Shown here piece after piece: positions 2,641-29,150 of a DNA stretch of 38,890 nucleotides (position 1 is its first letter; the number at the start of each line of letters is the position of its first letter). Under the pieces are notes generated by a model. The model saw only the letters and a program-made list of their open reading frames with translations. It made no database searches and had not been told where the DNA came from. The translations under genes and the position numbers were made by a program. The stretch is from a virus: positions 1 through 38,890 of IMG/VR virus record IMGVR_UViG_3300023109_002463, one strand, 5' to 3'.

Positions 2641-2952
2641 TCAACCCTTTCCTAGTATTTTTGAGACAATCCCTACCGCCAACAGAAGACCGGAGATAGA
2701 ATTCTCTAATTCTTCCTTCCTCTTCCCATTAGTTTTAAGTTTGTCTCTCCTCTTTTCCATCTTCTCGATCTCAGTGTACATATCAGCAACAATGTCAAAG
2801 GTTTTAATATCGATCTTAGATTTTCTTGGGATATTAAATGATAGGTTATTATCCTCGTCGATGTTAACATCTACCTGATGAGAAGAAGAGAGATGTTGCA
2901 TAAGAGCATCTAAATTCTCCCTGTTCAAGGTCACCCTATATAAGTCACTCAT
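2641..2952 (-). CDS. Hypothetical protein with coiled-coil and hydrophobic C-terminus
   Basis: The 103-aa protein is not recognised. Residues about 60-85 are a charged heptad-like helix rich in Glu and Lys. The C-terminus (ISGLLLAVGIVSKILGKG) is a short hydrophobic segment that could be membrane-associated or a helical pack. I chose the ATG at 2952 because GGGAG lies about 6 nt upstream. The gene overlaps the end of the RmlD-like gene by 8 nt. The longer start at 2985 would extend further into that gene without support. Confidence 0.65.
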   Translation of the reverse strand: MSDLYRVTLNRENLDALMQHLSSSHQVDVNIDEDNNLSFNIPRKSKIDIKTFDIVADMYTEIEKMEKRRDKLKTNGKRKEELENSISGLLLAVGIVSKILGKG

Positions 2953-3688
2953 CTTCACTCCCAAATATTTCGTCGTAATGGGCACAATTTAAACTTGTGT
3001 CCCTAGGTATCTTATAAGCACCCGTAACAATATCGTCGTAGACATCTGGTTCAACACTTGGACGATTCTTCTTAGCGTATTCATAGACACTCTGTGGTTT
3101 GCTCCCAATATTAATAGTTTCGATACCATTGCCGATAGTTATTACCTTCGCTAACCTCTTTGCGAATTCAGTCACTGGTAGTTTGCTAGTATACCGATTA
3201 GTATATGCTTTTGGGTAAGGGAATATGTCTTCCCCAAATGATCCACGCACGATTGTGTGATTATCACATAACGCCACGCTTGCCTCGCCCCCTAATTTTG
3301 ACCATGCATACTTATTACATGGGTTCACGCCGTGATCCTCTCTATTATAACCATCCTCCTCACCGTAAACGTAGTCAGAGGACATATAAACCAATCGAAT
3401 GTTGTTGATGATGCAATACGTCGTAATATGTGCGGTTGCCATAATATTGCTCTCTATCGCACGTATAGCACCATGATCTGTTGTCTCGCATGCCTTGGTG
3501 TCGGTCTCAGCGGCGAGGTGGACAAATGTATTTACGTGGCCTTGAGGGATACCAGCAAAATAGTATTCGATGCTACCATATGATTGGAGGTCTAATTCCC
3601 TGCGGGTCGGAAAGTGCGAATCCTGGAAATGACTTTTCATCGCAGTTCCCAACATTCCGGAACCACCCGTAAATACAATGTTCTTCAT
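2945..3688 (-). CDS. RmlD-like NAD(P)-dependent sugar-nucleotide reductase (extended SDR)
   Basis: The 247-aa extended short-chain dehydrogenase/reductase has the Rossmann motif TGGSGMLG (7-14), a strand ending in YMSSDYVYG, and the catalytic Y-x-x-x-K pair in KYAWSKLGGE. This is the arrangement of dTDP-4-dehydrorhamnose reductase (RmlD), although it is shorter than the usual 290-300 aa. The substrate is unknown. It lies 4 kb away from the glycan island, coupled by ATGA overlap to smpB upstream, with AGAGGAAGAG as ribosome-binding site. RmlA, B and C are not seen in the window, so a rhamnose pathway is not established. Confidence 0.7.
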   Translation of the reverse strand: MKNIVFTGGSGMLGTAMKSHFQDSHFPTRRELDLQSYGSIEYYFAGIPQGHVNTFVHLAAETDTKACETTDHGAIRAIESNIMATAHITTYCIINNIRLVYMSSDYVYGEEDGYNREDHGVNPCNKYAWSKLGGEASVALCDNHTIVRGSFGEDIFPYPKAYTNRYTSKLPVTEFAKRLAKVITIGNGIETINIGSKPQSVYEYAKKNRPSVEPDVYDDIVTGAYKIPRDTSLNCAHYDEIFGSEDE

Positions 3689-4146
3689 GATCTCTTCCTC
3701 TCTCGACTAGCGTCCCTGACTAAATCTTTCTGCTTAATATCCTCACGTTTATCGTGTAACTTTTTACCACGACATACCGCAATGCTCACCTTAATCTTCT
3801 TCGAGGTACTGTAGTGAATGTCCAGAGGTATAATTGAGATTGACTTCTCCCTAGACTGCTTCGCTATCTTTTTTATCTCATCCTTATTCAGTAGAAGACG
3901 GCGATCTCGGGACTCACTTATCTTAGAATGGGAGAGGTCCACGTTTGCATACCTTGCGATATGGACTTGCTTCAACCATACGTTGTTCCCCTCGACCCTG
4001 ATCCAACCTTCAGCGAGAGAGACCTCACCTGCTAACACAGATTTGACCTCTCCCCCTAGAAGACTTATCCCCGCCTCGAACTGGTCTATGACCTCGTAAT
4101 TAAAAAGCGCCTTTCGATTCTTCTGTAAAATTTTCATCATAGTCAT
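3685..4146 (-). CDS. smpB: SmpB, SsrA (tmRNA)-binding protein
   Basis: SmpB binds tmRNA and brings it to stalled ribosomes for trans-translation. The 153-aa protein matches the family along its length: KILQKNRKALFNYEV at the start, GGEVKSVLAGEVSL (the GxEVKS core), VWLKQVHIARY, a RRLLLNKDEI helix, VSIAVCRGKKLHDKRED, and a basic helical C-terminal tail. Cellular SmpB is usually about 150-160 aa, so it is full length. Three ATGs lie within the first four codons, and the gene overlaps the helicase gene by 47 nt without a clear Shine-Dalgarno. No ssrA gene is visible here, so the RNA partner must come from the host or from elsewhere in the phage. Confidence 0.93.
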   Translation of the reverse strand: MTMMKILQKNRKALFNYEVIDQFEAGISLLGGEVKSVLAGEVSLAEGWIRVEGNNVWLKQVHIARYANVDLSHSKISESRDRRLLLNKDEIKKIAKQSREKSISIIPLDIHYSTSKKIKVSIAVCRGKKLHDKREDIKQKDLVRDASRERKRS

Positions 4147-5599
4147 CTAGAACGTATTGGAGACTTTCATTTAGGATCAAACTCTTTTGGGCACGGGTCA
4201 GTGCTACATAAAGAAGATTAATCTCCTCTTCTTTAGGTGGAAAATAATCTGGTTCACCTTCCTTGGTGTAATCAAAGAAGTCATTTTCCATCATTACCGT
4301 ATCGAACTCAAGACCCTTACTCTTATGTGCCGTAGTGAGGACAACATCTGCCTTTGAAACGTGAACAGATGCCTTCTTGATCTCTGAGATAAGGTACGGG
4401 ATGTCCGACTTATACTTGTTGACCTCCAGTGCCAGTCTCATGATCTCAATATCTTCTGCCTGTTTAGCATATGCCATCATCCCGTCTAAGTCATAGAATG
4501 TTTTCATGAACGGATCTTTAATCTCAGACTTGTTGTTGCAGAACACGTTGTACGCATCCATGATCAAATCAATGCCACTATTCTCTACCCCACCTACGAT
4601 CCCGAATTTCTTATCGCTCTGGAGTAACTCTACAGCATTCTTAAATAGGGCAGAATTTGTCCTATGGATAATGGTGTATTTATTAAAGTCATGGATGTCC
4701 TTGACGAGTTCATCTTCGCCACCTGACCCCACTAGAGGGATCTTCTCATCCTTCTCCCTACGCAGGAGAGCATTGGCAACGTAAGCAACATTCTCCCCGA
4801 AACGAAAACTTTGGGAGAGATAATACTCATGATCGATTGTGATGGATTTAAAGGCATTGCTACTACCCCTAAACTGGTAAATAGACTGGTGATCGTCCCC
4901 GATCCAAACCTTAGAACATCTCTGCCCATTGACCAACTCGACAACAGCAGGGTTTGAGTCCTGTGCCTCATCGATCATGATCATATCGTATTCCTTAGAG
5001 ATGTCAGGGTTGGACAACTGGTACAACTTCAAGTACCCATCATGGGTCATTGGCATCGCCCTGTCATCCTTATCTTTCATCCTCCTCCAAATGGTAGAGG
5101 CATACTTCAGGATCTTAGGACGGAGTGCTTGGAATGCATCGGAAGGCACCATGTTGATATCGATCTTCTTATTACCTGAAGCGATAAAATTACAGACAGT
5201 GTACCATGAATTCCTAGCGATGTCCCACTTGTCCCTACCATTAAGGGATAGTTCCTTAACGATACTCATCAACCTCACCTTAGGTTTCAGTTTATGCCGA
5301 TAGAACTTTCCCTGTTCACCATATGCCATAGAGTGAGTCGTTCGACAGATGACATTCTTACCGAATTTCTTCTGTGCTTCCTCTTGGATTGACTTGTTGA
5401 ATGCTAAGTATAATACCTTCCACTTCGGGTTAGTTACGCCCAAGGCATTAGATAGTAGTTGGAGGGTAGTTGTCTTACCTGTCCCTGCGAATGCTTTCAC
5501 AGCAACAGACTCCCCTTTCTTATAATCGTGCTCAACGATCTTTTCCTGCTCCTCGGTCATTTGAAAACCGCTAGGATTAAACTGCTTCTTTTTAGGCAT
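4100..5599 (-). CDS. UvrD/Rep-like superfamily 1A DNA helicase
   Basis: The 499-aa helicase shows the SF1A motifs in order: Q-motif region MTEEQEKIV, Walker A AGTGKTT (about residues 38-44), motif II MIDEAQDSN, motif III GDDHQSIYQFRGS, motif V TTAHKSKGLEFD and motif VI YVALTRAQKSL. It is shorter than UvrD (about 720 aa), lacking most of the 1B/2B insertions, and resembles compact phage and FBH1-type enzymes. A likely role is unwinding recombination or repair intermediates. I chose the ATG at 5599, just after the dUTPase stop, with CAGGGA upstream and an AATAAATA sequence in between. The longer start at 5638 would overlap dut. Confidence 0.88.
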   Translation of the reverse strand: MPKKKQFNPSGFQMTEEQEKIVEHDYKKGESVAVKAFAGTGKTTTLQLLSNALGVTNPKWKVLYLAFNKSIQEEAQKKFGKNVICRTTHSMAYGEQGKFYRHKLKPKVRLMSIVKELSLNGRDKWDIARNSWYTVCNFIASGNKKIDINMVPSDAFQALRPKILKYASTIWRRMKDKDDRAMPMTHDGYLKLYQLSNPDISKEYDMIMIDEAQDSNPAVVELVNGQRCSKVWIGDDHQSIYQFRGSSNAFKSITIDHEYYLSQSFRFGENVAYVANALLRREKDEKIPLVGSGGEDELVKDIHDFNKYTIIHRTNSALFKNAVELLQSDKKFGIVGGVENSGIDLIMDAYNVFCNNKSEIKDPFMKTFYDLDGMMAYAKQAEDIEIMRLALEVNKYKSDIPYLISEIKKASVHVSKADVVLTTAHKSKGLEFDTVMMENDFFDYTKEGEPDYFPPKEEEINLLYVALTRAQKSLILNESLQYVLDDYDENFTEESKGAF

Positions 5600-5603
5600 A
5601 TAT

Positions 5604-6047
5604 TTATTTCCCTGATGAACCAAACCCATCTTCACCACGGTCGGTGTCGATGCTAAAATCTTCTACCTCGGTAATCTCTTCAACCCCTTCTGGCAGTTTG
5701 GGTAAGAGGTGAGGCATAACAACCATTTGAGCGATCTTATCCCCCTTTTGGAAGGTATAAGGTTCTGTCCCATAATTAACCATCGCTACGAGATATTCTC
5801 CACGGTAGGCATTATCTATTACACCTGCTTCTACCCCAAGGTCTTGTTTAACCGCTAACCCAGACTTAGAAAAAATCTTAATCCAGATCCCTTGAGGCAT
5901 CTCAATAGCGATGCCAGTATGTACAACCGTGACCCCATTCACTTGGATAACGGTCTCCTCGGACGCATACAGATCAAACCCAGCGTCGGATTCGTGTGCC
6001 TTTGTGGGGATGGTGGCGTAGTCGGACAGTCTTTTAACTTTTAACAT
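5604..6047 (-). CDS. dut: Deoxyuridine triphosphatase (trimeric dUTPase)
   Basis: Hydrolyses dUTP to dUMP and pyrophosphate, keeping uracil out of phage DNA and feeding dTMP synthesis. All five family motifs are present in 147 aa: DAGFDLYA (1), FSKSGLA (2), GVIDNAYRGE with the catalytic Asp and Tyr (3), KGDKIAQMV (4) and the C-terminal Phe-containing RGEDGFGSSG arm (5). The start has a good Shine-Dalgarno (AGGAGA), but this lies in an 8-bp hairpin directly before the ATG (6048-6070), so translation may be controlled. Confidence 0.96.
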   Translation of the reverse strand: MLKVKRLSDYATIPTKAHESDAGFDLYASEETVIQVNGVTVVHTGIAIEMPQGIWIKIFSKSGLAVKQDLGVEAGVIDNAYRGEYLVAMVNYGTEPYTFQKGDKIAQMVVMPHLLPKLPEGVEEITEVEDFSIDTDRGEDGFGSSGK

Positions 6048-7240: not shown

Positions 7241-7610
7241 GCCACCATTGTTTGAAAATAATTAACATCACTGTTAGTACAAATGTATTTATAAGATGAG
7301 GAACAGTTAAATCTGAATAATGGAATAACCATAGCAAATAACCGATACTACCATATAAAAATAAAAACTGGGCAGTGAATACAACAAGGAGCATTGCGAT
7401 CACCCCCTTTGGTTTCCACTTTAGAACCTTCTTAGGTTGATTCTCTAGTCTCGCATCATTTATAATCTTTTGATACTTAGCAATCTCTTCCTGCTCCTCG
7501 GAAGAATCAACATATGAGGACTGAAAATGATCCGCCTCCTCCTCGACGTGGTTGAATACCTTCTCTAGGAGGGATTCATTCGTTACGTCTATTTTTTCCT
7601 TATCTTTCAT
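7218..7610 (-). CDS. Small membrane protein, two transmembrane helices
   Basis: This is a 130-aa protein. The N-terminal half (about 65 residues) is charged and acidic, followed by a basic stretch (KKVLKWKPKG). Two hydrophobic helices follow (about residues 70-94 and 99-118), then a short charged tail. The basic stretch before helix 1 predicts a cytoplasmic N-terminus. The function is unknown; it could modify the host membrane, act in lysis, or anchor the glycan enzymes encoded next to it. The ATG at 7610 overlaps the stop of the epimerase-reductase gene as ATGA, which fixes the start; the earlier TTG at 7628 is less likely. Confidence 0.7.
   Translation of the reverse strand: MKDKEKIDVTNESLLEKVFNHVEEEADHFQSSYVDSSEEQEEIAKYQKIINDARLENQPKKVLKWKPKGVIAMLLVVFTAQFLFLYGSIGYLLWLFHYSDLTVPHLINTFVLTVMLIIFKQWWHVKTEDR
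7286..7293 (-). promoter_or_regulatory. T4-type late promoter box TATAAATA (inside the membrane-protein gene)
   Basis: A perfect box on the minus strand, with predicted start near 7280 and a leader of about 40 nt to the 150-aa gene. A weak repeat (7279-7285 with 7246-7251, one bulge) reaches the region just upstream of that start. Confidence 0.6.
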
Positions 7611-8539
7611 TTCTCCAACCAATCCCAACCACTTTCTTCTAATGCGGATATAGTTCTTCTAACCCCATCTTCTAATGTGATTTTACTTTCCCACCCTAGT
7701 TCCCGTAATTTAGAAACATCAGAAACCTTCTTGGCGGTACCATTTGGTTTACTAGGGTCATACACCAACTTACCTTCGTATCCCATTATATCCATAATAG
7801 TCTGGTATAATTCTGTAATCGATTTTCCCTCACCAGTGCCGACATTAACAAATCCTTTAGAACCATCATAACTGTCCGATAAGAAAATCAAAGCATCCGC
7901 CAAATCATCTACGTACATGAACTCCCTAACCGGACTTCCATCTCCCCATACCTCTATTTCTTCAATACCACTATCCTTCGCCTCCTTTACCTTCCTAATA
8001 ATAGCAGGCACAGCATGGCATTTTTTAGGATTAAAATTGTCATTCTCCCCGAATAAGTTAGTAGGCATTACAGAGATAAAGTCACATCCATACTGACTAT
8101 TGTAATACTCGCATAACCTGAGCGTGGATATCTTTGCCAGAGAGTATCCTTCGTTTGTAGGTTCCAACTCGCCAGAAAGAAGATGCTCTTCTTTCATTGG
8201 TTGAGGACAATCCTTTGGATAGATACAGGTACTGCCTATGTTAATTAATTTATTGACCTTGCATGCATGCGCCGACTTAATGACATTTAACCCCATCTGC
8301 ATGTTGTCAGTAAAGAACCCTACTGGATCTTCCTTGTTTGCCAGTATGCCCCCTACACGTGCCGCACAGTGAAACACAATGTCTGGGGAATTCGTCTGGA
8401 AATAATCAGATACGTCAGCACTGGAGAGAAGATTCAACTCGCCACTAGAGGGCGTCAGCAGTTCATTGCCATCCCTTAGTCTCTTCACAAGAGATCTACC
8501 TACCAACCCATTTGCACCAGTTATTAGTATCCTAGGCAT
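7607..8539 (-). CDS. GDP-4-keto-deoxysugar 3,5-epimerase/4-reductase (GDP-L-fucose synthase / ColC type)
   Basis: The 310-aa extended SDR is closely similar in layout to E. coli GDP-fucose synthase. It has GANGLVG (8-14), HCAARVGGI, the GSTCIYP loop (Ser103, Cys105), Y132-x-x-x-K136, and His175 in PKKCHAVPA. Each catalytic residue lies exactly four positions before its E. coli counterpart. It would take GDP-4-keto-6-deoxymannose to GDP-L-fucose or, after the ColD-like step encoded just upstream, make GDP-L-colitose. It overlaps that upstream gene by 8 nt. The sequence alone does not separate fucose synthase from ColC; the ColD-like neighbour favours colitose. Confidence 0.9.
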   Translation of the reverse strand: MPRILITGANGLVGRSLVKRLRDGNELLTPSSGELNLLSSADVSDYFQTNSPDIVFHCAARVGGILANKEDPVGFFTDNMQMGLNVIKSAHACKVNKLINIGSTCIYPKDCPQPMKEEHLLSGELEPTNEGYSLAKISTLRLCEYYNSQYGCDFISVMPTNLFGENDNFNPKKCHAVPAIIRKVKEAKDSGIEEIEVWGDGSPVREFMYVDDLADALIFLSDSYDGSKGFVNVGTGEGKSITELYQTIMDIMGYEGKLVYDPSKPNGTAKKVSDVSKLRELGWESKITLEDGVRRTISALEESGWDWLEK

Positions 8540-9713
8540 TATTTAATATTCCCGTTATCGTCTTAATATCATCTCTGGTAATATACTGATGGTTGCCGAT
8601 ATACAAACCGTAGTAATGTATGTGATCAGCATTTTCAAAATCCTCTGGGTTCCCATACCCCTTTCCTTGGAGGTAAGGTTGTCTTAATTGATTGCCGCCT
8701 CCAGCAATCCCTCTTCGGTAACCAACCTTATTCTCTTCTAGGGTTTCACATATCCTCCCAACTAGGTCTGCATCCTTCTCCCGTAAAATAATAATCAACC
8801 CAAAATTAGAATTACCTTCTAAATTAAAATCTGTAAAGAATTTATTACTATCTAGCAGTTCCAAAAACAACTCGAAATTATTCCTACGAACCTCAATATT
8901 ATTGTCAATATAACTTATCTGTTTTTTACCTAAGAATCCGCCAATCTCGGTGCCACGGAAGTTAAATCCTGGATAAGCAAATACAAATTCGGGTGCTGGT
9001 TCAGGATTAACCTCAAAATATTTTTCCTGCATTTTCTTATCTGTACACTCCCTAACTAATCCATGAGATCTCATCATACGGAGAACTTGATACATCTCAT
9101 CATCATTAGTACACACCATCCCACCCTCTACTGTAGTAATATGATGACCATAATAAAAAGAGTAATTGCAAACATCCCCGAATGAACCAATCTTACCGCC
9201 GTTATGGGTAGCGCCATGTGACTCACAGCAATCCTCAATAAGCAAGATGTCCCTTTCTTTGCATAGTTTAATCAACTCGTCTGTAAGGGCGTTAAACCCC
9301 ATCAGGTGCGTCAATAATACCGCCCTTGTTCTTATGGTTAAAGCATCCAGTATTTTTTGTGGGTCCATGGACACATTGTCTAGACTCACATCAACAAATA
9401 CTGGCGTAAACCCGCAGAGAATTACAGAAGAGATGTCAGTCACCCAATTCACTGACGACACTATCACCTCTCCGAGATTGGCAGGACTACACCCCTTCTC
9501 AATCAACATCTCCCTGATAGAGAGGAGAGTGATCAAGTTAGCATTCCCTCCAGAATTGACGTATACGCTATATTTTACCTCTGCCCAATCAGACCACCGT
9601 TCTTCAAACTCACGCACTTGCGAACCGTTTGTCAACTTTGGATTTCCCCTGATGAACTCAGCAAGTTCGTCTAGATCCTGCTGGGGGATGTTGTTGTCCA
9701 TTAAATTCCACAT
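8532..9713 (-). CDS. ColD-like GDP-4-keto-6-deoxymannose 3-dehydratase (DegT family, active-site His)
   Basis: This 393-aa protein is a DegT/DnrJ-fold B6 enzyme. PLP-binding residues are visible: NSGG near 53-56, IEDCCESHGA with Asp161, and the loop SFYYGHHITTVEGG (185-198). In aminotransferases of this family the sixth position of that loop is the Schiff-base lysine; here it is His190. Histidine at this position marks the 3-dehydratases ColD (colitose) and RfbH/E1 (CDP-sugars). Since the gene lies between gmd and the epimerase-reductase, the likely reaction is removal of the 3-hydroxyl of GDP-4-keto-6-deoxymannose using PLP and glutamate. The start has GAGGATT upstream and lies directly after the gmd stop. 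Confidence 0.85.
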   Translation of the reverse strand: MWNLMDNNIPQQDLDELAEFIRGNPKLTNGSQVREFEERWSDWAEVKYSVYVNSGGNANLITLLSIREMLIEKGCSPANLGEVIVSSVNWVTDISSVILCGFTPVFVDVSLDNVSMDPQKILDALTIRTRAVLLTHLMGFNALTDELIKLCKERDILLIEDCCESHGATHNGGKIGSFGDVCNYSFYYGHHITTVEGGMVCTNDDEMYQVLRMMRSHGLVRECTDKKMQEKYFEVNPEPAPEFVFAYPGFNFRGTEIGGFLGKKQISYIDNNIEVRRNNFELFLELLDSNKFFTDFNLEGNSNFGLIIILREKDADLVGRICETLEENKVGYRRGIAGGGNQLRQPYLQGKGYGNPEDFENADHIHYYGLYIGNHQYITRDDIKTITGILNNA

Positions 9714-9714
9714 A

Positions 9715-10713
9715 CTAAATCCTCGCTAAATCATGTTCCATCATATCGGTTACTAACTCCTCTAGGGTGATCTTCGCTTCCCACCCTAGAACCTCTTTTG
9801 CCTTTGTAGGGTCTCCTACTAGTAGATCTACCTCAGCAGGACGATAGTACTTAGGATTCACCTTAACAACTATTTTTCCATCGACCTTGCCCACTTCATC
9901 GACACCTTCTCCTTCCCAAACTATATTTGCACCAATTCGGGAAAATGCCATCTCAACAAATGTCCTGACCTTCTCGGTTCTTCCCGTGGCGATCACATAA
10001 TCATCAGGGGTATCTTTTTGTAGGATCCTCCATTGCGCTTCAACATATTCTTTGGCATGCCCCCAGTCCCTCTTTGAATCTAAATTTCCTAGTTCTAATA
10101 CATCCTGTTTCCCAGCATGAATATTTGCAACTGCCATTGTAATTTTACGTGTAACGAATGTCTCTCCTCTGCGTGGGGACTCGTGATTAAAAAGGATCCC
10201 GTTACTAGCATGCATCTCGTAAGATTCTCTATAATTTTTAACAATCCAAAATCCATATATCTTCGCCACCCCATAGGGGGATCTCGGATAAAAAGGAGTA
10301 GTTTCAGACTGGGGGATCTCCTGTACCTTCCCGTATAGTTCAGAAGTGGATGCTTGATAAAATCTACAGTCTGGTTTAATATTTCGGATCGCTTCTAGAA
10401 AACGGAGGGTACCTACCGCATCTACCTGAGCAGTATATTCTGGGACATCAAATGATACCTTAACATGTGACTGTGCGGCGAGATTGTATACCTCATCTGG
10501 CATTATCTTTCTCACGAGATCGTTGATATTGGAGGTATCAGTCACGTCCCCGTAATGAAGTGTTATATCTTTGAAAATATGATCAAGACGACCAGTATTA
10601 ATTGTGCTCGACCTCCGGATAATCCCGTGGACATCATAACCCTTTTCGAGTAGTAACTCCGCAAGATAACTACCGTCTTGACCTGTAATTCCTGATATTA
10701 ATGCTTTTTTCAT
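9715..10713 (-). CDS. gmd: GDP-mannose 4,6-dehydratase
   Basis: Converts GDP-D-mannose to GDP-4-keto-6-deoxy-D-mannose, the first committed step to GDP-fucose, colitose, perosamine and related sugars. The 332-aa extended SDR has GITGQDG (8-14), IIRRSS with NADP-type arginines (31-36), LHYGDVTD, the ASTSELYG loop (121-128) and Y147-x-x-x-K151. Length is slightly below the bacterial 350-370 aa. It has an AGAGGATAT ribosome-binding site. The host must supply GDP-mannose, since no ManC/ManB is seen here. The next two genes continue the pathway. Confidence 0.95.
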
Positions 10714-10727
10714 TTTATATATCCTCT

Positions 10728-11390
10728 CTATATCTTATATTCCTTATGCAAAAATTCTGCAAATTTAAAGTCCAATGGTGTATCGATATCTACTGCTGAC
10801 ATCTCATCGATGACCTTTAATAAAGGTTTTTTACCAACAATATTTTTGTTATCGAATAACGATGTTGACCTTATCATATTAAAGGCGAAATTCAATGCTA
10901 GTATATCTGGAAGATCTTGCGAATTAGGAGCATTTTCTGCTGAGTAGTTTAAGGGTTTCTCATCAATCCACATGAACTCTTTTATTAAACTACATGTATT
11001 CACAGAGTCGTAACCCTCAATGCTTAGAAATTCTTCTATCAACTCATCGATCTTGGTACTAGTAATCATGGGCGACGTTACTGGAGAATACACAATATAC
11101 TCGCACGTTGTACATGTTGACAGATATTTAAAAAAATCACTCCCAGAAATAGTATCGCTTGCATACTCTTCGTCCCTTTTTTGAAATATCACATTATTCT
11201 CTAATGCTATTCTTTCTGCTTCATCGCTGTCACTATTAATGATTATCTCATCAATGTTTTTTGCTGCTTTTAGCGTTTCAATCTTATACTCCAATAGAGA
11301 TTTTTCATTGAATTTTTTAAAATTCTTATTGGGAACCCTTTTGCTTCCCGCTCTTACCGCAATTATGGATGAAACTTTACCATTACTCAT
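10728..11390 (-). CDS. neuA: CMP-nonulosonate (CMP-N-acetylneuraminate-like) cytidylyltransferase
   Basis: The 220-aa NeuA/KdsB-type cytidylyltransferase has the signature [17 protein letters not shown] (about residues 9-25), where Arg and Lys bind the triphosphate, and [10 protein letters not shown]. The C-terminal [15 protein letters not shown] carries the Asp residues for Mg. It should activate a sialic or related nonulosonic acid as its CMP form. No NeuB or NeuC homologue is seen in the window, so the free sugar must come from the host or from genes outside. The gene overlaps the GT42-like gene by 8 nt. I chose the second ATG (11390) because GGGAG lies 6 nt upstream. Confidence 0.85.
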
Positions 11391-12141
11391 CATCCTCTCC
11401 CACGATGACCTCTAAATCTTTATACTCTATAAAGTTGTTTATGTAACCACCGGGCGAGGAAGATATAACTTCTATATCATCCTGTTTATTTAGTTGCTTA
11501 AGTACATATCCCCATATATTCTTGACATTTTCATCTATTGCTTGACCCGTTTTTTGTCCCTTTACATAGTAATCTTTGTGGAAGTGATTCGGCGAAGGCA
11601 TGTCATCTTTATATACCCAGTTTGCGTTATTATGTTTGTCGAATAAATGATCCCATGCTGCATAGTTGGCATCGCATCCTATCAGAACAAATCTCCTGTA
11701 CCCCATCGCATAGAACAATGGAAAATGGAAACACCCGGCATTTTCTAAATGTAATTTTGTGTGTATATGTTTTTTGTTAACATTTAATTTTTCGTCGAAG
11801 CAAAACAAAGAATCATCTTCAGTACTCGTGCATTTACACCAGTCCCCATGCTCACCAGTAATAGAAACGTAAGAAATATTATCAAGACCTAAACTATCAA
11901 AGAATCCTACAGGCTGATTACCTATAAACGCTCTCTTGAACTTGGGAAGATATTTTACAATATCACTTTTAACAGAATCAAACATAGCACGATCTATACA
12001 TGCGTAATATGTAGGAACAAACCCCCATTCCTCATAAGCAACAAACGCTCTATTGAACGAAAGCGTATCTTTACTTCTAAGAGAAGTAATATCTACTTTA
12101 TTTACTGAAGGTCCGTTCGCTACTACATACAATGTTTTCAT
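11383..12141 (-). CDS. GT42-like sialyltransferase or related Rossmann-fold protein
   Basis: The 252-aa protein starts MKTLYVVANGPSVNKVD, closely resembling the opening of Campylobacter GT42 sialyltransferases (xxGNGPSLKEID). Further matches in layout are SFNRAF, a YYACID strand, and the later hydrophobic helix and strand (FYAMGYRRFVLIGCDANY). MAF/DUF115 flagellin-modifying proteins share the same NGPS opening, so both are possible. The gene directly upstream of neuA favours a CMP-sugar transferase. A late promoter box lies 29 nt upstream, making this the first gene of the nucleotide-sugar block (GT42-like, neuA, gmd, colD-like, epimerase) expressed from that promoter. Confidence 0.6.
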   Translation of the reverse strand: MKTLYVVANGPSVNKVDITSLRSKDTLSFNRAFVAYEEWGFVPTYYACIDRAMFDSVKSDIVKYLPKFKRAFIGNQPVGFFDSLGLDNISYVSITGEHGDWCKCTSTEDDSLFCFDEKLNVNKKHIHTKLHLENAGCFHFPLFYAMGYRRFVLIGCDANYAAWDHLFDKHNNANWVYKDDMPSPNHFHKDYYVKGQKTGQAIDENVKNIWGYVLKQLNKQDDIEVISSSPGGYINNFIEYKDLEVIVGEDDE

Positions 12142-12152
12142 TTCATTCTCTG

Positions 12153-12977
12153 CTATAAAATAGTTTCTATATTTATATCCTTACTAAATACGGTGCGTAC
12201 ATCTCCCCAACACTCTTCTCTAGTATCCTTTAAATTTTTTCCTTTATACATATATTCTTTTCTTGCACCATCCGCAAACTCATCTATTCCTCTTAAACAA
12301 TATAGATTAGATTTCGAAAGAATATGCGTAGAGATACCACCAGCGTTTGATGGCGAAAAAACAAACTTTGCTCGTTCCATATATGCTAATTGTTCATTGT
12401 AGCATCCGTATAGTTTCTCAGTATTCAATTCATGTTTGTAGGAAGACTTATAGTTTACAAAAGATAAGGTTCTAATTCCTCTATCGTTTAGTGATTTTAT
12501 CGTATCACTAAAATCAGCATTTCTTCCCATATTCTTTTCTTGCTTGTAATTTCTATTGAGAAATACATAGTCATAGTGGTCGTTTACCTGATACGAACTC
12601 TTAAGATATAAATCAGTTTCCCTAATTATCTCACATGTCGTCTTAAAGATAAATTCGTAAGGATGAACTGATATTTCCTTTTTATATTCATACACCTCGT
12701 CGAAACCTTTAGCGAATTCATTTATTTGTAATTCTCTAGAATTGTTAAACTCATCCTGCACAACACCGCCCTTATCTAAAATTTCAGGAGCGTACTCTAA
12801 ATCACCCACAATAACTTCATCACATAACTGATAGATAATCTCATGGCTTTTATTAAAACAATAAGCGACTGTTTTAAAATCTCTGTATTTCTTCTTACAT
12901 TGATACGCCATTAAAGACGATATTATAACGCTATTAAACTCGTCATTTAAAGAGGGATAGATGAAAATCTTTTTCAT
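12153..12977 (-). CDS. Putative glycosyltransferase, GT-B-like
   Basis: The 274-aa protein is not firmly assigned. A C-terminal segment (AKFVFSPSNAGGISTHILSKS) resembles the nucleotide-sugar-binding loop of GT-B enzymes such as heptosyltransferases, where a surface Ser/Gly loop precedes a helix. The N-terminus has an alternating strand-helix pattern (KKIFIYPSLNDEF). Acceptor and donor are unknown. It is transcribed with, and 3 nt from, the preceding DxD glycosyltransferase gene; no Shine-Dalgarno is visible, so it probably depends on translational coupling. Confidence 0.5.
   Translation of the reverse strand: MKKIFIYPSLNDEFNSVIISSLMAYQCKKKYRDFKTVAYCFNKSHEIIYQLCDEVIVGDLEYAPEILDKGGVVQDEFNNSRELQINEFAKGFDEVYEYKKEISVHPYEFIFKTTCEIIRETDLYLKSSYQVNDHYDYVFLNRNYKQEKNMGRNADFSDTIKSLNDRGIRTLSFVNYKSSYKHELNTEKLYGCYNEQLAYMERAKFVFSPSNAGGISTHILSKSNLYCLRGIDEFADGARKEYMYKGKNLKDTREECWGDVRTVFSKDINIETIL
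12154..12177 (-). promoter_or_regulatory. Inverted repeat around the late promoter of the nucleotide-sugar block
   Basis: On the minus strand TATAAA and ATAG (12167-12177, one T bulge) pair with CTAT and TTTATA (12154-12163), closing an AAA loop. The 5' arm is the late box itself. The repeat ends 12 nt upstream of the ATG and overlaps the previous stop codon. It does not reach the start codon. Confidence 0.4.
12170..12177 (-). promoter_or_regulatory. T4-type late promoter box TATAAATA
   Basis: A perfect late box on the minus strand near the end of the 274-aa gene. Predicted start is near 12164, giving a leader of about 22 nt to the GT42-like gene. It would place neuA, gmd, the ColD-like gene and the epimerase-reductase under late control. 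Confidence 0.7.
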
Positions 12978-12980
12978 AAT

Positions 12981-13856
12981 TCAGAACCACTCTTTAACAG
13001 ATAATAGTTTTTTATACTGATCTACATCTATGCCTATATCCTCATTATAGAATATTTTACAGTAAAGCGCATATCTGTCTAACGCATATTTCTTATATCC
13101 ATCTGGTATATTAACATTTCGGTTATTAAAAATATTCATACCAGAACCCACCGCAGAAAAATGCACTACTTTTCTTCCAAAGTCAATTTTAAAGGGAGTT
13201 TCCATATTATTTAAGTCTTTAAACTCATTATTCCTAGAACCCTCAATATTACATCCCCCAACATCATCATGATCCAATAAAAAAACTCTTCCTCCGTTCT
13301 TTATAATATCAAAAGACACCGGATCAAAGAAATCAATCACTGGGTGTCCGAGGGGATTAGTTGTTCCTTGGCACATTTCAGCTAAGATATTGTATGGTCT
13401 TTTCGTAACTAACTCTTTATTAAACGAAAAACAGTAGGTCTGACAAATGTCATCTAGATGTCTTACATCATTCCTATTATTCGGGTTTTTCTTATAGCAC
13501 CTTGTCGGACCAACTAGGCCATGTTCCTTCGTCTCTTCTATGATCTGATCAAAGATGTTCCCCCTAAATATCACATCGCTATCGAAATGAGAAATAAACT
13601 TTTCGTCTACCGTCTGGATCAATTTGGCCCAAAGCATAGCGGTTCCACGGTGCCCGTGACCGAATCCTAGTGTTATAGGATCGGCTTCGCCGTATACGAT
13701 CTTCTTAACCCGTGGGTCGTCAACTATATGCTCTAGGTCCTTTTTTGTCCCAATGACATTGACTGTTAAACCATTATGATATTTGAGGAAAGAATCCACG
13801 GCGATCTTGCCAATTTTTCCACAGTTAAACACCTCCGTGAAAATAAAATTATCCAT
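12981..13856 (-). CDS. Putative GT-A glycosyltransferase (DxD)
   Basis: The 291-aa protein has HFDSDVIF (about residues 90-97), a D-x-D motif at the end of a strand as in GT-A enzymes. It is preceded by RGTAMLWAKLI and followed by a His/Asp-rich segment (LLDHDDVGG) and a late VVHFSAVGSG strand carrying a possible metal-binding His. It resembles GT8- or GT2-like folds but I cannot assign the family. It has a good ribosome-binding site (AGGAG) and overlaps the preceding SDR gene by 8 nt. Confidence 0.6.
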   Translation of the reverse strand: MDNFIFTEVFNCGKIGKIAVDSFLKYHNGLTVNVIGTKKDLEHIVDDPRVKKIVYGEADPITLGFGHGHRGTAMLWAKLIQTVDEKFISHFDSDVIFRGNIFDQIIEETKEHGLVGPTRCYKKNPNNRNDVRHLDDICQTYCFSFNKELVTKRPYNILAEMCQGTTNPLGHPVIDFFDPVSFDIIKNGGRVFLLDHDDVGGCNIEGSRNNEFKDLNNMETPFKIDFGRKVVHFSAVGSGMNIFNNRNVNIPDGYKKYALDRYALYCKIFYNEDIGIDVDQYKKLLSVKEWF

Positions 13857-14493
13857 TTGAACTCCTACAATATTTTTCTACTACCATCTGGTTATACCCT
13901 TTGATCGTCTCAAAATCACCATCTACTTCATAAAGAGTGTCTTCGCTGGGGACAATATCCAATTCATAGTCCTCACAGAGACATTCCCCCATCAATATTG
14001 CTAATTCTTTCACTTCGATTGGACGATCTAATATCAAATTATAGGCACCTGACTTCTCTAGACATCTCATTACATATCCCTTAACATCATCAACATCAAC
14101 CAAGTACCTAAAACTATTTTTAAATATCTTGACCCGTTTCCCACTCTGGGTACTAGACCTTAAGTAGTTAAATAAGGTATTTGGATTACTACTGTTACTT
14201 ACAACGTTAGGCAGTCTGACAATACAATGAAAAGGAAATTCCTTTTCAATAATGGTTTCCATGTTCAATTTATGTCCGATATAGTCCTCTCCTCGGTAGT
14301 GACTATCATATATGGAGCATGTACTAAAGTAGACTAATTTTTTGTCTCGGTCCTGTTTTAACAATAAGTCTACTTCTCGGTTATATTCTCTCTCCCTTGT
14401 CTCATTGGAATTAGATACGCCGGACGCAAACACGATAACATCCTCGGCCTGTATGTCGCACTTACTTGCTAATAATCCGTTTCCAACAATCAT
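13849..14493 (-). CDS. Short SDR / NAD-dependent epimerase-like protein
   Basis: The 214-aa protein has an extended-SDR-like core. A Gly-rich first loop (MIVGNGLLAS) is followed by VIVFASGVSNS, the strand-loop LVYFSTCSIYDS containing the catalytic Ser/Tyr region, and Y-x-x-HK in DYIGHKLNME supplying the Tyr-Lys pair. It is much shorter than typical sugar epimerases (about 300 aa), so the substrate domain is reduced. The substrate is unknown; it may modify a sugar nucleotide of this island. Confidence 0.6.
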   Translation of the reverse strand: MIVGNGLLASKCDIQAEDVIVFASGVSNSNETREREYNREVDLLLKQDRDKKLVYFSTCSIYDSHYRGEDYIGHKLNMETIIEKEFPFHCIVRLPNVVSNSSNPNTLFNYLRSSTQSGKRVKIFKNSFRYLVDVDDVKGYVMRCLEKSGAYNLILDRPIEVKELAILMGECLCEDYELDIVPSEDTLYEVDGDFETIKGYNQMVVEKYCRSSNG

Positions 14494-14495
14494 TT

Positions 14496-15233
14496 TTAAA
14501 GTTTATCCAATCTTATATATTTTCTTTTATTTCGGACGAATTTTTCTAACTCACGCTGTCGTTTTTCATTGACAGTACCGTCTCTAGTAACATTAGCAAC
14601 GTTATATATCAGAGTGATTTCTTCTATATACCTACTTCGCTCACCAGACATCTCTAGCATAGGGAATTGAAATGCCATATCCCCACATGTGTCTAACCAT
14701 TCGCCGTCATTTCTTTTAAAGTCATGCCTATCTATACGGTTAAATAGTTTTTTCCTAAATGTTCTTAGATGAGAACCTAACCACCTATGTTCTCTGAAAC
14801 CGTTACTGCGTATGACGCTATCTGGGTACTTCTCATAGATATGCGAAACCGATCTATATGGGTACTCTTCATATGTACCGTATGTCATCCACACCTCATC
14901 TGTGTAGTACCTATTTAGTAGTTTTAAAACATCTGTATTAGGAAACCAATCATCTCCATCTAAAGATACAAAGATAGTATCTGGATTATCACACATGTCT
15001 ACAAGATTACATATGTTTGCAATTTGTGGAACACGTATATCGTTTCTTCGTATTTTTAGTTTAGGATCTATATGGCGATACTTCTGAATTATATCCCACG
15101 TCCCATCGCCCGACTTGGCATCTACTACCACAATATCGAAATTGTCGTAATCCTGTCTAATGGCGCTATCTAAACTTTTAGCGATCCAGTCCTTCTGGTT
15201 ACACACATCTATACCAATGGTAAAGTGATTCAT
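14496..15233 (-). CDS. Glycosyltransferase family 2
   Basis: The 245-aa GT2 enzyme has the opening FTIGIDVCNQKDWIAKSLDS, a strand IVVVDAKSGDGT matching the usual D-x-S-x-D-x-T of family 2, and VSLDGDDWF (DxDD) for UDP/GDP-metal binding. The start is fixed at 15233 by an ATGA overlap with the FkbM gene upstream; the longer TTG start at 15254 is unlikely. Donor and acceptor are unknown. No transmembrane helix is seen, so it works in the cytoplasm or at the membrane face. Confidence 0.82.
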   Translation of the reverse strand: MNHFTIGIDVCNQKDWIAKSLDSAIRQDYDNFDIVVVDAKSGDGTWDIIQKYRHIDPKLKIRRNDIRVPQIANICNLVDMCDNPDTIFVSLDGDDWFPNTDVLKLLNRYYTDEVWMTYGTYEEYPYRSVSHIYEKYPDSVIRSNGFREHRWLGSHLRTFRKKLFNRIDRHDFKRNDGEWLDTCGDMAFQFPMLEMSGERSRYIEEITLIYNVANVTRDGTVNEKRQRELEKFVRNKRKYIRLDKL

Positions 15234-15850
15234 TTTAATACCCAATGTTCCCAAACATAATAATAATCAAACACCAACCGATGCGTCTTTTCTAATCTAT
15301 TCCTTATTTGTTGTCTTCTTTCATGGAAGTTTTCTATATTGAATTGATAGTGAAACTGAACTTGTATATTGTCAATATTTGAATAATCCTCTATGCCTTC
15401 CATAAACTCATATTCACCGCCTTCAATGTTTACCTTCAACACATCGATAAAATTTATATCATGCTTAATTAAATAATCTTCAAATTTAACTCTATTGACG
15501 GTAATCGTACTATTAGTGTCTTTATTGTACATAGAAATATCGTCGGTACTGTCTTCGTTAATAGAAACATCTTCTTGTCCATTATATGCACCTAACGCAC
15601 AATCATTAATTATTATATCTGATGAAGAAAATCTTTTTCTTAATTTATCTACATACTCAGGAAAAATCTCAAAGATATGATAAGTTCCTTTATAAAGAGA
15701 ACTCATTTTAGAGGTCCAATCCCCATTGAACCCTCCCACATCAAAAATTATTCCTTTAGAATTCTTGATATTATATTCATATCGCAATTTTTCTTTGCCG
15801 GACTTACCCCAGACAATCGCCTCTCTTTTATATCGAGCAATATCAAACAT
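15230..15850 (-). CDS. FkbM-family SAM-dependent methyltransferase
   Basis: The 206-aa protein has the FkbM fold signature: IIFDVGGFNGDWT (34-46) as SAM-binding motif I, HIFEIFPEY as motif II, the FEDYL region, and LKVNIEGGEYEFMEG, matching the VDVEGxE motif of the family. FkbM enzymes O-methylate sugars or polyketides. In this island it most likely methylates a hydroxyl of the glycan, possibly capping the chain. The start is a TAATG overlap with the GT10 gene, with AAGGAG upstream. Confidence 0.85.
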   Translation of the reverse strand: MFDIARYKREAIVWGKSGKEKLRYEYNIKNSKGIIFDVGGFNGDWTSKMSSLYKGTYHIFEIFPEYVDKLRKRFSSSDIIINDCALGAYNGQEDVSINEDSTDDISMYNKDTNSTITVNRVKFEDYLIKHDINFIDVLKVNIEGGEYEFMEGIEDYSNIDNIQVQFHYQFNIENFHERRQQIRNRLEKTHRLVFDYYYVWEHWVLK

Positions 15851-16680
15851 TACACAAACTCCTTATACACAATATCAAATATGTAGTCTTCTATCACCGA
15901 ATATTTTTTTGCTACCCCTAGGTTCTTATCGTTCACAATACCATACCTTCCGCCCTTTAGTATCCCCAACAATTCATCGGTGTCCTTAAATTTAATTATA
16001 CCGTCTTCGGAAAAAAAGTCCCCGATGTTAGGGCAACCCCAATAAATAGGGATAGTTCCTACATTGAAGCAATCTACAATTTTTTCAGTAAAGTAATTTT
16101 TTCTAGAGGTATTCTCTATCACAATAGAATATTTGTAATCCTTCAGCCCATCTTCTTTACTTGATATTGGGTTGATTCCTCTCCCGTACACATCCACGGG
16201 TATCTTCTCTGTTCGCAACCTAGATAATACACTATGTCTAAGTTTATGACCATCCGTCCTATTTTTATTAGACATAATAAATGATACATCCTTAGTTTTA
16301 GGATGCATCTTCATGTTTTCTGGTCTAATCCACGAACCCGCCAACGGTATCAACTTTGCCTTCTCAGGAAAAGACCGTAATATGTTTTCATCGTGAGTAA
16401 GTATAACGTCGAAATCATTTATTACTGATCTTATATGTTCTGTTGTAATACCATTTATCAAACCGCACTCTATTAACCACCCAACCTTATATTTACTTTT
16501 TACCTTTTTATGTATACCACTAATAACCATCCTCTCGGTGAATACGGTTATACCATCCCAATTCATTCTATCGTGAACATATTTAACTGTATCCGGAACC
16601 TGTCCGTGTATAGCAGAATATCTCCCATCAGGAGTTCTTAAATGAGCCACCGCTTGGTCAAATAAATTAATTGTCAACAT
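15850..16680 (-). CDS. GT10 family (alpha-1,3/4-fucosyltransferase-like)
   Basis: The 276-aa GT10 enzyme carries the family hallmark in residues 183-222: YSIVIENTSRKNYFTEKI, then GTIPIYWGCPNIGDFF. In this segment the Glu-Asn, Tyr, Thr-Glu-Lys and Tyr-Trp-Gly residues shape the GDP-fucose site. Upstream SNKNRTDGHKLR (137-148) corresponds to the first conserved block. It should transfer L-fucose or a relative such as colitose from GDP to a glycan. It is slightly shorter than bacterial GT10 enzymes (Helicobacter FucT, over 400 aa), lacking heptad repeats and the membrane tail. Confidence 0.88.
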   Translation of the reverse strand: MLTINLFDQAVAHLRTPDGRYSAIHGQVPDTVKYVHDRMNWDGITVFTERMVISGIHKKVKSKYKVGWLIECGLINGITTEHIRSVINDFDVILTHDENILRSFPEKAKLIPLAGSWIRPENMKMHPKTKDVSFIMSNKNRTDGHKLRHSVLSRLRTEKIPVDVYGRGINPISSKEDGLKDYKYSIVIENTSRKNYFTEKIVDCFNVGTIPIYWGCPNIGDFFSEDGIIKFKDTDELLGILKGGRYGIVNDKNLGVAKKYSVIEDYIFDIVYKEFV

Positions 16681-17578
16681 AATACTTTTCCAGAATTTTG
16701 CTTTTCATTTCTATAATATACAACTTTTGTTTGTAGTCACACGACCAAAACTCTACTAACAAATCATGCATTTTCTGATGATGAGGGTTATTGCTCTTTT
16801 CATTAGTATGGAATAAATGGTAGAGGTTCATATCTTCAGAGTCTGCATACATTGCCCCCCCTTGATGACATTCTCTAATGGCCCCTATCGACTTTACACA
16901 ACATTCTAATTTTACCCAAAACATAGAGTCTTCGGGGGCATATCCATAAAAAATTTCAGGGTCGAAGCCACCAACATTTTTGAAAATATCATTTCTAACA
17001 ATAATAGATCCTCCCGGTGCTCCGGCCTTATTTTGCGTATTCGCCCAAAAGGTTCTGTCAGTAAAATTTACATTTTCACCAGAAAACAATCTATCCGTCG
17101 TTTCTTTAGATAAATTTATTACCCGTCTTCCAAAATAAGGCTGTAACCACATCGGATTGTTTTTTAAACATCTATCAATATGTGAGAAAAAAAACTCATC
17201 CATAATTAAATCTGAATCATGGTACATAAACCATTTTGCATTAGTCGCCCTATATAGAAAACCAATATTAGCGATTAGTGCTCTGGAATACATCCCTTCA
17301 GTGCTTGTTGTCTTTAGATCGATAAATATCTTATCTTCCTCGATCTCTATCGAAGGTTCCTTATCACTTTCTACTACCACTATTTCTATATTTAAAGAGG
17401 TATTCTCTCTAGCCTTGTTTATAGTTTCTATAGTCTTCTTTAAGTACTTATGCCTTCCCTTTGTCCCTATACAGATAACCAAATCACATGGATTATTATT
17501 TATTTCTATATTATTGTCGCTAAAAATTTTGTGATAATCTACTTTGCGGGTTTGTATTTGATTAATTATCCCTTTCAT
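16667..17578 (-). CDS. Glycosyltransferase family 2 / GT7 C-terminal-like
   Basis: This is a 303-aa GT-A enzyme. It has LVICIGTKGRHKYLKKTIET as the nucleotide-binding opening, IVVVESDKE, a YHDSDLIM DxD motif, and a C-terminal block APGGSIIVRNDIFKNVGGFD then GYAPEDSMFWVKLE. The last part is the Gly-Gly-F-D ... E-D layout of the galactosyltransferase C-terminal domain. Donor and acceptor are unknown. I chose the ATG at 17578, close to the upstream stop; a TTG at 17590 is possible. Another GT with the same architecture is encoded at 18.3-19.1 kb. Confidence 0.8.
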   Translation of the reverse strand: MKGIINQIQTRKVDYHKIFSDNNIEINNNPCDLVICIGTKGRHKYLKKTIETINKARENTSLNIEIVVVESDKEPSIEIEEDKIFIDLKTTSTEGMYSRALIANIGFLYRATNAKWFMYHDSDLIMDEFFFSHIDRCLKNNPMWLQPYFGRRVINLSKETTDRLFSGENVNFTDRTFWANTQNKAGAPGGSIIVRNDIFKNVGGFDPEIFYGYAPEDSMFWVKLECCVKSIGAIRECHQGGAMYADSEDMNLYHLFHTNEKSNNPHHQKMHDLLVEFWSCDYKQKLYIIEMKSKILEKYYVDN

Positions 17579-18342
17579 ACTTTGACCCAACCTTCACAAT
17601 AAATATCATCGTACCCACCTCTATATCCAGCCCCAAACCACTCTTTAGGACAAATAACCGTCTTATCGACCTTTGTATTTAGCCATGCTCCCCACCAACT
17701 AAAACTAGAGTTTGCTATTATATGATTTTTACATAAAGACATAGCATACATCTCTAGATAATCTTTATCATTAAAAAAAACCACATCTATATCTGAAAAA
17801 TTTTCTCTACACCAATTAATATCATCGCTAAAAACTACATATTTTTGATGTTTTCCTAATATATCAATTCCTTTTTTATAATACTCCATATTACATAGTT
17901 TATGTATATGTGTAAGTTTTATATAGTCACCTCTTCTTACATGTATAGAGTTTCGTTCTCGTATATCAGATACTTTATAAACTATGTGCTTCAGATCCTC
18001 TTCTCTAGGCGTAAATAAGTTTAAAATATGTTCTCGATACTCTTTAAAATATTTCTCCGACTGATAATATCCGTGAAGTATTAAATTAGGTCTATATGGT
18101 ATTGTCTGAAACACTAAAGGATCATACTTATACCAAATCCCCGTATCTTTGAATTTTTCTTTTTTTATATGTCTTAAAATATTATCGTTATAATCACTAG
18201 CCGGAGCTTGTGGTCGAGGGGAACTAGAATGTAACTCTAAATCAAAATAACACTGATCATTATTTTTTATAGATAACGATTCTGTTGCAGAAATCTGAAA
18301 TAAAATATTTCCAAGACCTCCTATAATTCTACAAGTTATCAT
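17575..18342 (-). CDS. GT11 family (alpha-1,2-fucosyltransferase / colitosyltransferase-like)
   Basis: The 255-aa GT11 enzyme shows all family motifs: IIGGLGNILFQ (6-16), HVRRGDY (134-140) for GDP binding, VVFSDD (169-174) and NSSFSWWGAW (211-220). It transfers L-fucose from GDP to a 2-hydroxyl. Family members such as E. coli O55 WbwK transfer colitose instead, so the ColD-like gene in the same island makes colitose a real option here. It is linked to the preceding gene by an ATGA overlap. The length is at the short end of the family. Confidence 0.92.
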   Translation of the reverse strand: MITCRIIGGLGNILFQISATESLSIKNNDQCYFDLELHSSSPRPQAPASDYNDNILRHIKKEKFKDTGIWYKYDPLVFQTIPYRPNLILHGYYQSEKYFKEYREHILNLFTPREEDLKHIVYKVSDIRERNSIHVRRGDYIKLTHIHKLCNMEYYKKGIDILGKHQKYVVFSDDINWCRENFSDIDVVFFNDKDYLEMYAMSLCKNHIIANSSFSWWGAWLNTKVDKTVICPKEWFGAGYRGGYDDIYCEGWVKV

Positions 18343-21426: not shown

Positions 21427-22839
21427 TTACAAAAGTTCTGCTGCGGCGGCACTGACCTCCGATCTCTCGCATTTAACAAATGAGATATGCCCGTAAAACT
21501 CTTGACCCCTGAACTTCCTAATCAGGTGCGCTAACCCATTATTGTTCTTACTCAAATAACTAACATCGATCTGTGATGGGTCACCACTACAAATAATAAG
21601 GGTGTTCTGCCCTACCCTAGATAGGATAGTCTTAACTACATCACTTCCTACGTTCTGCATCTCATCAACGATGATGATACAGTCATTAAAGGACCGACCT
21701 CGGATATACGATATTGCCTCGACCTCGATCTTACCATCCTCAACCATATCCTCAAAAGATTTGGTTGTTTCCTTGTAACCTTCATGATGCGACTTCCTCA
21801 GTGTCTCAAAGTTGTCGATATATGATTTCATGAATGGTTCCAATTTAGAACTAACATCTCCGGGTAGATAACCCATGTCATTAGCAACGGAAACTACTGG
21901 TTTAACAAGGATTATCTTTTCGTACTGACTCCCCTTCTCCAATAGTTTAGTCATTGCGCATGCCATACTGAGGAAGGTTTTCCCTGTACCCGCAGGCGAG
22001 GATAGGGTTACTACCTTTATCTCCTCACTCATTAGGATATCCATACCAACAGACTGTTCTAGATTCCTCCCAGTGATACTGCCAAATAGATTCTTAAACT
22101 TTAAATCCCTGTACATAAGGACACCGTCCATGTACCTGTAAACCTTCTTTAACTTCTTCAGGTCCCTGTTGGTTAACTCATCGGACAGTTCTTCTTGGTC
22201 TACCTCGATGAGTATAAACTCATTCGGAGCGATATCATCTTCCGATAGTCCAACATCATCTAGATACAACACATCCTGATGCTCCCTTTGTTCAAATTTA
22301 CCCTCGACCTCTGTTCCAAAAAAGGACAGTGGTAGGTTTAGGGTCCTGTACCCATTGTATTCTACCGCCTCTCTAGGGATAGCAGAGTTCTTGTATATCT
22401 CGGTAGGGAGGTCATGGATAATTGCCTTTAACCTAGCGTTAGTGTCGTTAGACACGAACACAGTCTTCCCTTCCATCTCCTTAACACACTTCAGCGCAGT
22501 AAGAACGATCAAGTCGTCCTTCTTATCCATAGCAAAATTGAAGTCATTCAGTTCCTTAACGTCGTCCTCATTCATGGATACAATCCTGAGGATACCACCT
22601 AAATCGTTCCTAGAGATACCACGACGAACATTCTTATCCTTGCTTTGGAAGATAAGATTATCCAGAATCCTGAACACCTCTCTTGCTTGGTAACCCCTGT
22701 TCTGGGATTCCTTTTTTATATTGTCCACCTCTTCAATTACAGCGAGAGGTATTACCAAATTATTTTCGTCAAATCCTTCAGTGATACACTTTGGATCCGT
22801 CAATAATACATTTGTATCTAACACAAAATTCTTACTCAT
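21427..22839 (-). CDS. phoH: PhoH-like protein: PIN RNase domain fused to PhoH ATPase
   Basis: This is a 470-aa two-domain protein. Residues 1-150 form a PIN nuclease domain (FVLDTNVLL with Asp8, acidic residues at 36-37, KDDLIV, VFVSNDTN). Residues about 260-450 are a PhoH P-loop ATPase with SPAGTGKT (281-288) and IIIVDEMQN as Walker B. Such PIN-PhoH proteins of bacteria are thought to be RNA helicase-nucleases. phoH is widespread in marine phages, but its role in infection is unclear. The ribosome-binding site is AAGGA; the gene overlaps the peptidase gene by 8 nt, suggesting joint expression. Confidence 0.92.
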   Translation of the reverse strand: MSKNFVLDTNVLLTDPKCITEGFDENNLVIPLAVIEEVDNIKKESQNRGYQAREVFRILDNLIFQSKDKNVRRGISRNDLGGILRIVSMNEDDVKELNDFNFAMDKKDDLIVLTALKCVKEMEGKTVFVSNDTNARLKAIIHDLPTEIYKNSAIPREAVEYNGYRTLNLPLSFFGTEVEGKFEQREHQDVLYLDDVGLSEDDIAPNEFILIEVDQEELSDELTNRDLKKLKKVYRYMDGVLMYRDLKFKNLFGSITGRNLEQSVGMDILMSEEIKVVTLSSPAGTGKTFLSMACAMTKLLEKGSQYEKIILVKPVVSVANDMGYLPGDVSSKLEPFMKSYIDNFETLRKSHHEGYKETTKSFEDMVEDGKIEVEAISYIRGRSFNDCIIIVDEMQNVGSDVVKTILSRVGQNTLIICSGDPSQIDVSYLSKNNNGLAHLIRKFRGQEFYGHISFVKCERSEVSAAAAELL

Positions 22840-29147: not shown

Positions 29148-29150
29148 TAA

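Follow-up and report, generated by a model that had tools for sequence, protein, structure and literature searches.

A full-length SmpB, probably active in ribosome rescue, encoded by a virus with a T4-like replication block

The window analysed here is an entire IMG/VR record of 38,890 bases and is probably a fragment of a virus genome. It carries a gene for the tmRNA partner protein SmpB in a run of overlapping genes, together with a set of T4-type replication genes:

2945-3688, minus strand: RmlD-like sugar reductase, downstream gene (ORF; Pfam RmlD_sub_bind, E 6e-21)
3685-4146, minus strand: smpB, full-length SsrA-binding protein of 153 amino acids (ORF; Pfam, NCBIfam and PHROG matches; residues; predicted fold)
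3688-3768, minus strand: part of smpB for the conserved basic tail, with GKKLHDKR at residues 127-134 and a predicted C-terminal helix at 133-152 (alignment; predicted secondary structure)
4100-5638, minus strand: UvrD/Dda-like helicase, upstream gene (ORF; Pfam UvrD-helicase, E 8e-15)
5604-6047, minus strand: dUTPase, a member of this run that overlaps the helicase gene's start (ORF; Pfam dUTPase, E 3e-28)
27064-27456, minus strand: RegA translation repressor, a marker of the T4 lineage (phrog_242, E 5e-31)
27507-29948, minus strand: gp62, gp44 and gp45 clamp-loader and clamp genes (phrog_225, phrog_168, phrog_223)
29960-34605, minus strand: gp32-like single-stranded DNA-binding protein, gp41-like helicase and UvsX recombinase, the T4 replication core (phrog_224, phrog_19, phrog_97)

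The smpB frame has three in-frame start candidates (4146, 4140 and 4137), and its 153-residue product matched the Pfam family SmpB (PF01668) over residues 8-151 with an E-value of 2.3e-46 (157.7 bits, cut-off 27) and scored above the cut-offs of two NCBIfam equivalog models, NF003843 (158.9 bits, cut-off 130) and TIGR00086 (156.6 bits, cut-off 119.1, residues 7-150). The protein also matched PHROG 6791 (E 2e-39), and its sequence matches in the PDB were SsrA-binding proteins throughout (best E 5e-32). These family scores are far beyond chance, and a lone chance ORF was considered and rejected. A preliminary description of this DNA had placed a full-length SmpB at 3685-4146; the coordinates are correct, the Pfam match covers nearly the whole protein and both equivalog cut-offs are passed.

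Based on an alignment with Escherichia coli SmpB, we located the residues predicted to contact tmRNA and the ribosome. The equivalents of E31, L91 and N93, which we take to be tmRNA-contact positions, are kept as E24, L85 and N87; those of G132, K133, K134 and H136, presumed functional positions of our own choice, are kept as G127, K128, K129 and H131; and the D137-K138-R139 motif is present as D132, K133 and R134. According to a review, changing all three residues of the DKR motif to alanine abolishes trans-translation (PMC8012679). That the checked functional positions, from E24 to the motif at 132-134, are all retained at no more than 46% identity to any SmpB found suggests purifying selection, and a degenerate SmpB was considered and rejected. 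The earlier claim of an intact core and basic decoding tail is therefore borne out, and the alignment, in which a loss of tmRNA-binding residues had been named as grounds for abandoning the proposal, has them in place. The AlphaFold model (mean pLDDT 86.8) has a C-terminal helix at residues 133-152, and all 21 Foldseek matches in the PDB at E <= 0.001 were SmpB chains (E down to 4.5e-13), several of them in complex with tmRNA or the ribosome. The predicted structure is the beta-barrel/OB fold of SmpB; the input alignment of the model holds SmpB sequences, so that the model supports this fold without constituting independent proof.

The same residues bear on the suggestion that the phage protein might compete with host SmpB. 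Such a decoy would bind host tmRNA or stalled ribosomes without tagging and thereby block host quality control, and inhibition of this kind has precedents, as a molecule similar to the phage DS6A tmRNA, which consists of a tRNA-like domain only, inhibits tmRNA (PMC4131195, PMC11915505) and isolated SmpB tail peptides block the binding of tmRNA-SmpB to the A site (PMC8012679). However, a decoy does not require the residues needed for activity, among them the DKR motif, in which the triple alanine mutant is inactive (PMC8012679), and their integrity argues mildly against competition, which we consider very unlikely.

The gene is embedded among phage-type genes on both sides. The helicase gene and smpB share 47 bases, the 3' end of the former covering the start of the latter, and the smpB stop codon overlaps the ATG of the reductase gene by four (ATGA), while the GC content of smpB (0.44, and 0.52 at third codon positions) resembles that of the upstream helicase gene (0.51 at third positions) and of the surrounding region. 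The overlaps with phage genes and the local-like composition argue that smpB is a resident phage gene. In many named prophage records smpB lies beside an ssrA integration site, and the smpB genes of named E. coli, Klebsiella and Staphylococcus phages resemble host flank, as in the bamE-rnfH-ratA-smpB order of E. coli phage 500465-1 and in several other cases at a record edge; the window gene could by analogy be host DNA or an artefact of a prophage flank. Against this origin stand the overlapping phage-type neighbours in a strand-uniform run, an identity of at most 46% to any bacterial SmpB found and the T4 core on the same contig, and we rejected misassembly or a prophage flank on these grounds, leaving this explanation a negligible chance.

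Elsewhere in the window, a cluster on the minus strand (7607-18342) encodes an epimerase, an RfbH/PseC-like aminotransferase, a GDP-mannose 4,6-dehydratase (Gmd, above its NCBIfam cut-off), a cytidylyltransferase and glycosyltransferases of families 2, 10 and 11 (fucosyltransferase-like), with a GC content falling to 0.32-0.37 in its later part. Its gene content suggests that this phage-borne cluster may direct a fucose-type glycan on the virion or the host surface. A PhoH2-like protein of 470 amino acids (21427-22839) matches phrog_2765 over its full length.

The lineage of the virus is indicated by the replication genes. The gp45, gp44, gp62 and RegA genes are arranged in the T4 order, and the window also encodes a gp19-like tail tube protein, a gp21-like protease and a piece of a DNA polymerase; a Gp23-type major capsid gene is absent from the 38.9 kb, an incomplete genome. 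In the best matches listed, gp41, RegA and gp44 of the window are about 30-43% identical to their counterparts in named phages. Scans of IMG/VR for close relatives with the gp41-like helicase, the UvrD-like helicase, gp44 and PhoH, which are seeded with short peptide patterns and may overlook relatives, returned a single distant helicase relative. Judged from gene content, the T4-like label of the window is well supported by the replication block.

We found SmpB in more than 80 other viral or phage-labelled records. Among 50,697 records of a phage collection, 66 had an SmpB relative, comprising Lak phages, uncultured huge phages, short unverified fecal or wastewater scaffolds and prophage-type records, and no T4-like isolate appeared among these 66 in the organism tallies or the rows listed; RegA was matched in 2,294 records of the same collection. 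An alignment-based scan of IMG/VR gave 220 stretches that encode SmpB relatives, 80 of which were kept. Many SmpB-bearing IMG/VR contigs carry Gp23-type capsid genes, the long matches being clear (G016, G048, G051, G080, W02 and W03) and the short ones doubtful. We tested 56 other SmpB-bearing records for RegA and found it in none, though many of them are fragments; SmpB together with RegA in one virus looks an unusual combination. The statement that SmpB is unusual for a T4-like phage thus stands for RegA-bearing T4 relatives and fails for large phages with Gp23 capsids, in which SmpB is recurrent. As a claim of rarity or novelty for phage SmpB in general it was overstated, since tmRNAs and SmpB were already reported for huge phages (Al-Shayeb et al., 2020; PMC7162821) and more than 80 further records are at hand; smpB has also been named among the genes of human-gut phages (PMC10294663). 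In two huge-phage contigs, G003 (267424-268926) and G034 (85979-86713), in-frame TAG or TAA codons lie inside Gp23-like or gp44-like matches, possibly reflecting stop-codon recoding, introns or sequence errors.

In a tree of 95 rows, the window SmpB joined three phage rows (L138, L172 and L174) at 94/88, within a set of phage rows, on a long branch (0.86) and without a starred placement. None of the window proteins matched the 20-kb surroundings of these tree sisters. The best bacterial identity was 46%, to Echinicola (Bacteroidota). Tree placement had been proposed as a means to name the donor; holding the window protein with Bacteroidota (p-AU 0.489) or with Cyanobacteria (p-AU 0.377) was rejected in neither case, both groupings are compatible with the data, and we name no donor.

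A search for ssrA or a tRNA-like element, likewise proposed, found none in the window: ARAGORN, Rfam models at the gathering threshold and at a permissive E-value, and scans for permuted alpha and beta forms were all negative for tmRNA in the 38.9 kb, and no tRNA genes were detected there. tmRNAs above threshold occurred in 6 of 9, 9 of 50 and 3 of 29 SmpB-bearing records of three record sets. We set aside three of these (L090, L131 and L179), whose SmpBs group with bacterial ones and which are probably host DNA, leaving about 15 SmpB-bearing viral records with an above-threshold tmRNA. Distances between smpB and tmRNA, computed from the listed coordinates, were about 297 kb (Lak-B5), 281 kb (Lak-A2), 259 kb (LR756504), 257 kb (G047), 250 kb (G002), 118 kb (G034), 114 kb (G001), 67 kb (G043), 63 kb (G017), 43 kb (G030) and 37 kb (G033), and fell below 1 kb in two measured records only (G037 and G045). 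The window extends 3.7 kb beyond smpB in one direction and 34.7 kb in the other; because the tmRNA of relatives usually lies far from smpB, a missing tmRNA in the window is weak evidence.

ARAGORN confirmed the tmRNAs of several relatives, with tags such as DDEIDFRMAA (Lak-A2), DDTTTYRMAA and EDALAFVDGEFALAA, and several of the tags end in Ala-Ala. The ends of these RNAs form a GGGG...CUCC-type acceptor stem, the third pair being G:U in most cases, and a TTCGA T-loop is usual. Tags ending in RMAA occur in three different large phages (L094 1503-1895, from Lak-A2; L203 1501-1854; L205 1501-1907), unlike the E. coli tag, which ends in ALAA. In the viral contig G037 (L202, L146; 35.9 kb), which also has a Gp23-type capsid gene, the gap between tmRNA and smpB is about 144 bases, an adjoining arrangement that contrasts with most phages having both. 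The 353-kb phage contig G001 has a candidate tag of 31 residues (L099 1501-1865), unusually long by the ARAGORN frame call.

These records bear on whether the virus might possess a full trans-translation module, with its own tmRNA elsewhere in the genome and perhaps a phage-specific tag; this would be a special case of an active SmpB and not an alternative to it. The roughly 15 viral records with both components, mostly 37-297 kb apart where measured, speak for such a module, whereas the 38.9-kb fragment has no tmRNA, and 7 of the 18 SmpB-bearing records of at least 250 kb have one above threshold, with a weaker full-length match in 3 more. Taken together, a full module is a reasonable prospect at somewhat less than even odds. 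Several SmpB-bearing genomes of more than 340 kb have no above-threshold tmRNA, and may carry SmpB alone or an RNA too divergent for the models. Large phages that have SmpB without tmRNA would also suit a protein whose main role is to bind RNA or DNA and regulate phage or host genes without tmRNA, and SmpB of Aeromonas veronii has been reported as a transcription factor (PMC7270562). Such a role needs none of the ribosome and tmRNA contact residues, yet they are conserved, and we regard it as quite unlikely. Both the regulator and the decoy are possible readings, less supported than an active SmpB.

We propose, with a probability of roughly 0.7 and on the strength of the sequence, the structural model, the gene context and the large-phage relatives that pair SmpB with tmRNA, that the gene encodes an active SmpB, expressed from a phage operon, that feeds ribosome rescue in infection. 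The protein would bind the tRNA-like domain of a tmRNA and help bring alanyl-tmRNA and EF-Tu to ribosomes stalled on broken mRNAs, at the 3' end, where its basic tail would enter the empty mRNA channel; this would free the ribosomes and tag truncated proteins. The virus would probably benefit by having ribosomes at its disposal when nonstop mRNAs arise through infection, host RNases or RNA-cleaving defences. We infer, for the window protein, that it is expressed, binds tmRNA, acts in rescue and benefits the virus. The partner tmRNA would be the host copy or a phage copy outside the fragment. SsrA of the host persists at high abundance in E. coli infected with T4 (PMC9697503), which would make host tmRNA accessible to the virus, and Helicobacter pylori SmpB works with E. 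coli tmRNA, replacing the E. coli protein for growth and for plating of lambda-immP22, a phage that depends on trans-translation (PMC2862035). Since a distant bacterial SmpB can stand in for the E. coli protein and host SsrA is abundant, a phage SmpB could use host tmRNA. Against an active SmpB stand the lack of a tmRNA in the window and the several SmpB-bearing large phages with no recognisable tmRNA. Bacterial hosts normally already encode SmpB, which leaves the need for an extra phage copy unexplained. A T4-lineage phage with SmpB and no tmRNA of its own might take over, retune or boost host tmRNA rescue, for example against RNA-cleaving defences, a tentative and rather doubtful extension of the active-SmpB proposal.

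Compared with known systems, the window protein is closest in kind to SmpB of huge phages and Prevotella Lak phages (PMC7162821), which is likewise full-length, encoded by large tailed phages and 40-45% identical to it. Several of those phages also encode tmRNA, and the full module appears complete in Lak phages; they differ in their very large genomes, their remote Gp23-like capsid genes and the lack of RegA in those tested, whereas the window has the T4 clamp-loader and RegA block. It belongs to the same family as the bacterial SmpBs (E. coli, Thermotoga, Aquifex, Bacteroidota) and resembles them in predicted fold, in contact residues and in its basic, helical tail, but it is encoded by a phage, its gene lies between those of a helicase and a sugar reductase with no adjacent ssrA, and its identity to them is 46% at most. 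The tmRNA genes of mycobacteriophages, phage G and methylophage Melnitz (PMC4131195, PMC9004378) are also phage-borne parts of trans-translation; those reports concern the RNA, whereas in the window the protein gene is present and no RNA was detected. SspB of the T4-like Pseudomonas phage pf16 (PMC5587285) is an ssrA-pathway protein in a T4 relative without its own ssrA, but acts on tagged proteins, whereas SmpB acts at the ribosome with tmRNA.

The survey points to large phages of both kinds, some having SmpB and a recognisable tmRNA and others SmpB and none, and the window is a modest extension that adds a RegA-bearing virus with a T4 core to the known SmpB-bearing giant phages. mRNA-cutting defences and phage enzymes strand ribosomes, and a phage rescue factor would be a simple way to sustain translation. 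If the protein is active, the phages that supply ribosome rescue would include, besides giant phages, a virus that has the classic T4 replication genes together with RegA.
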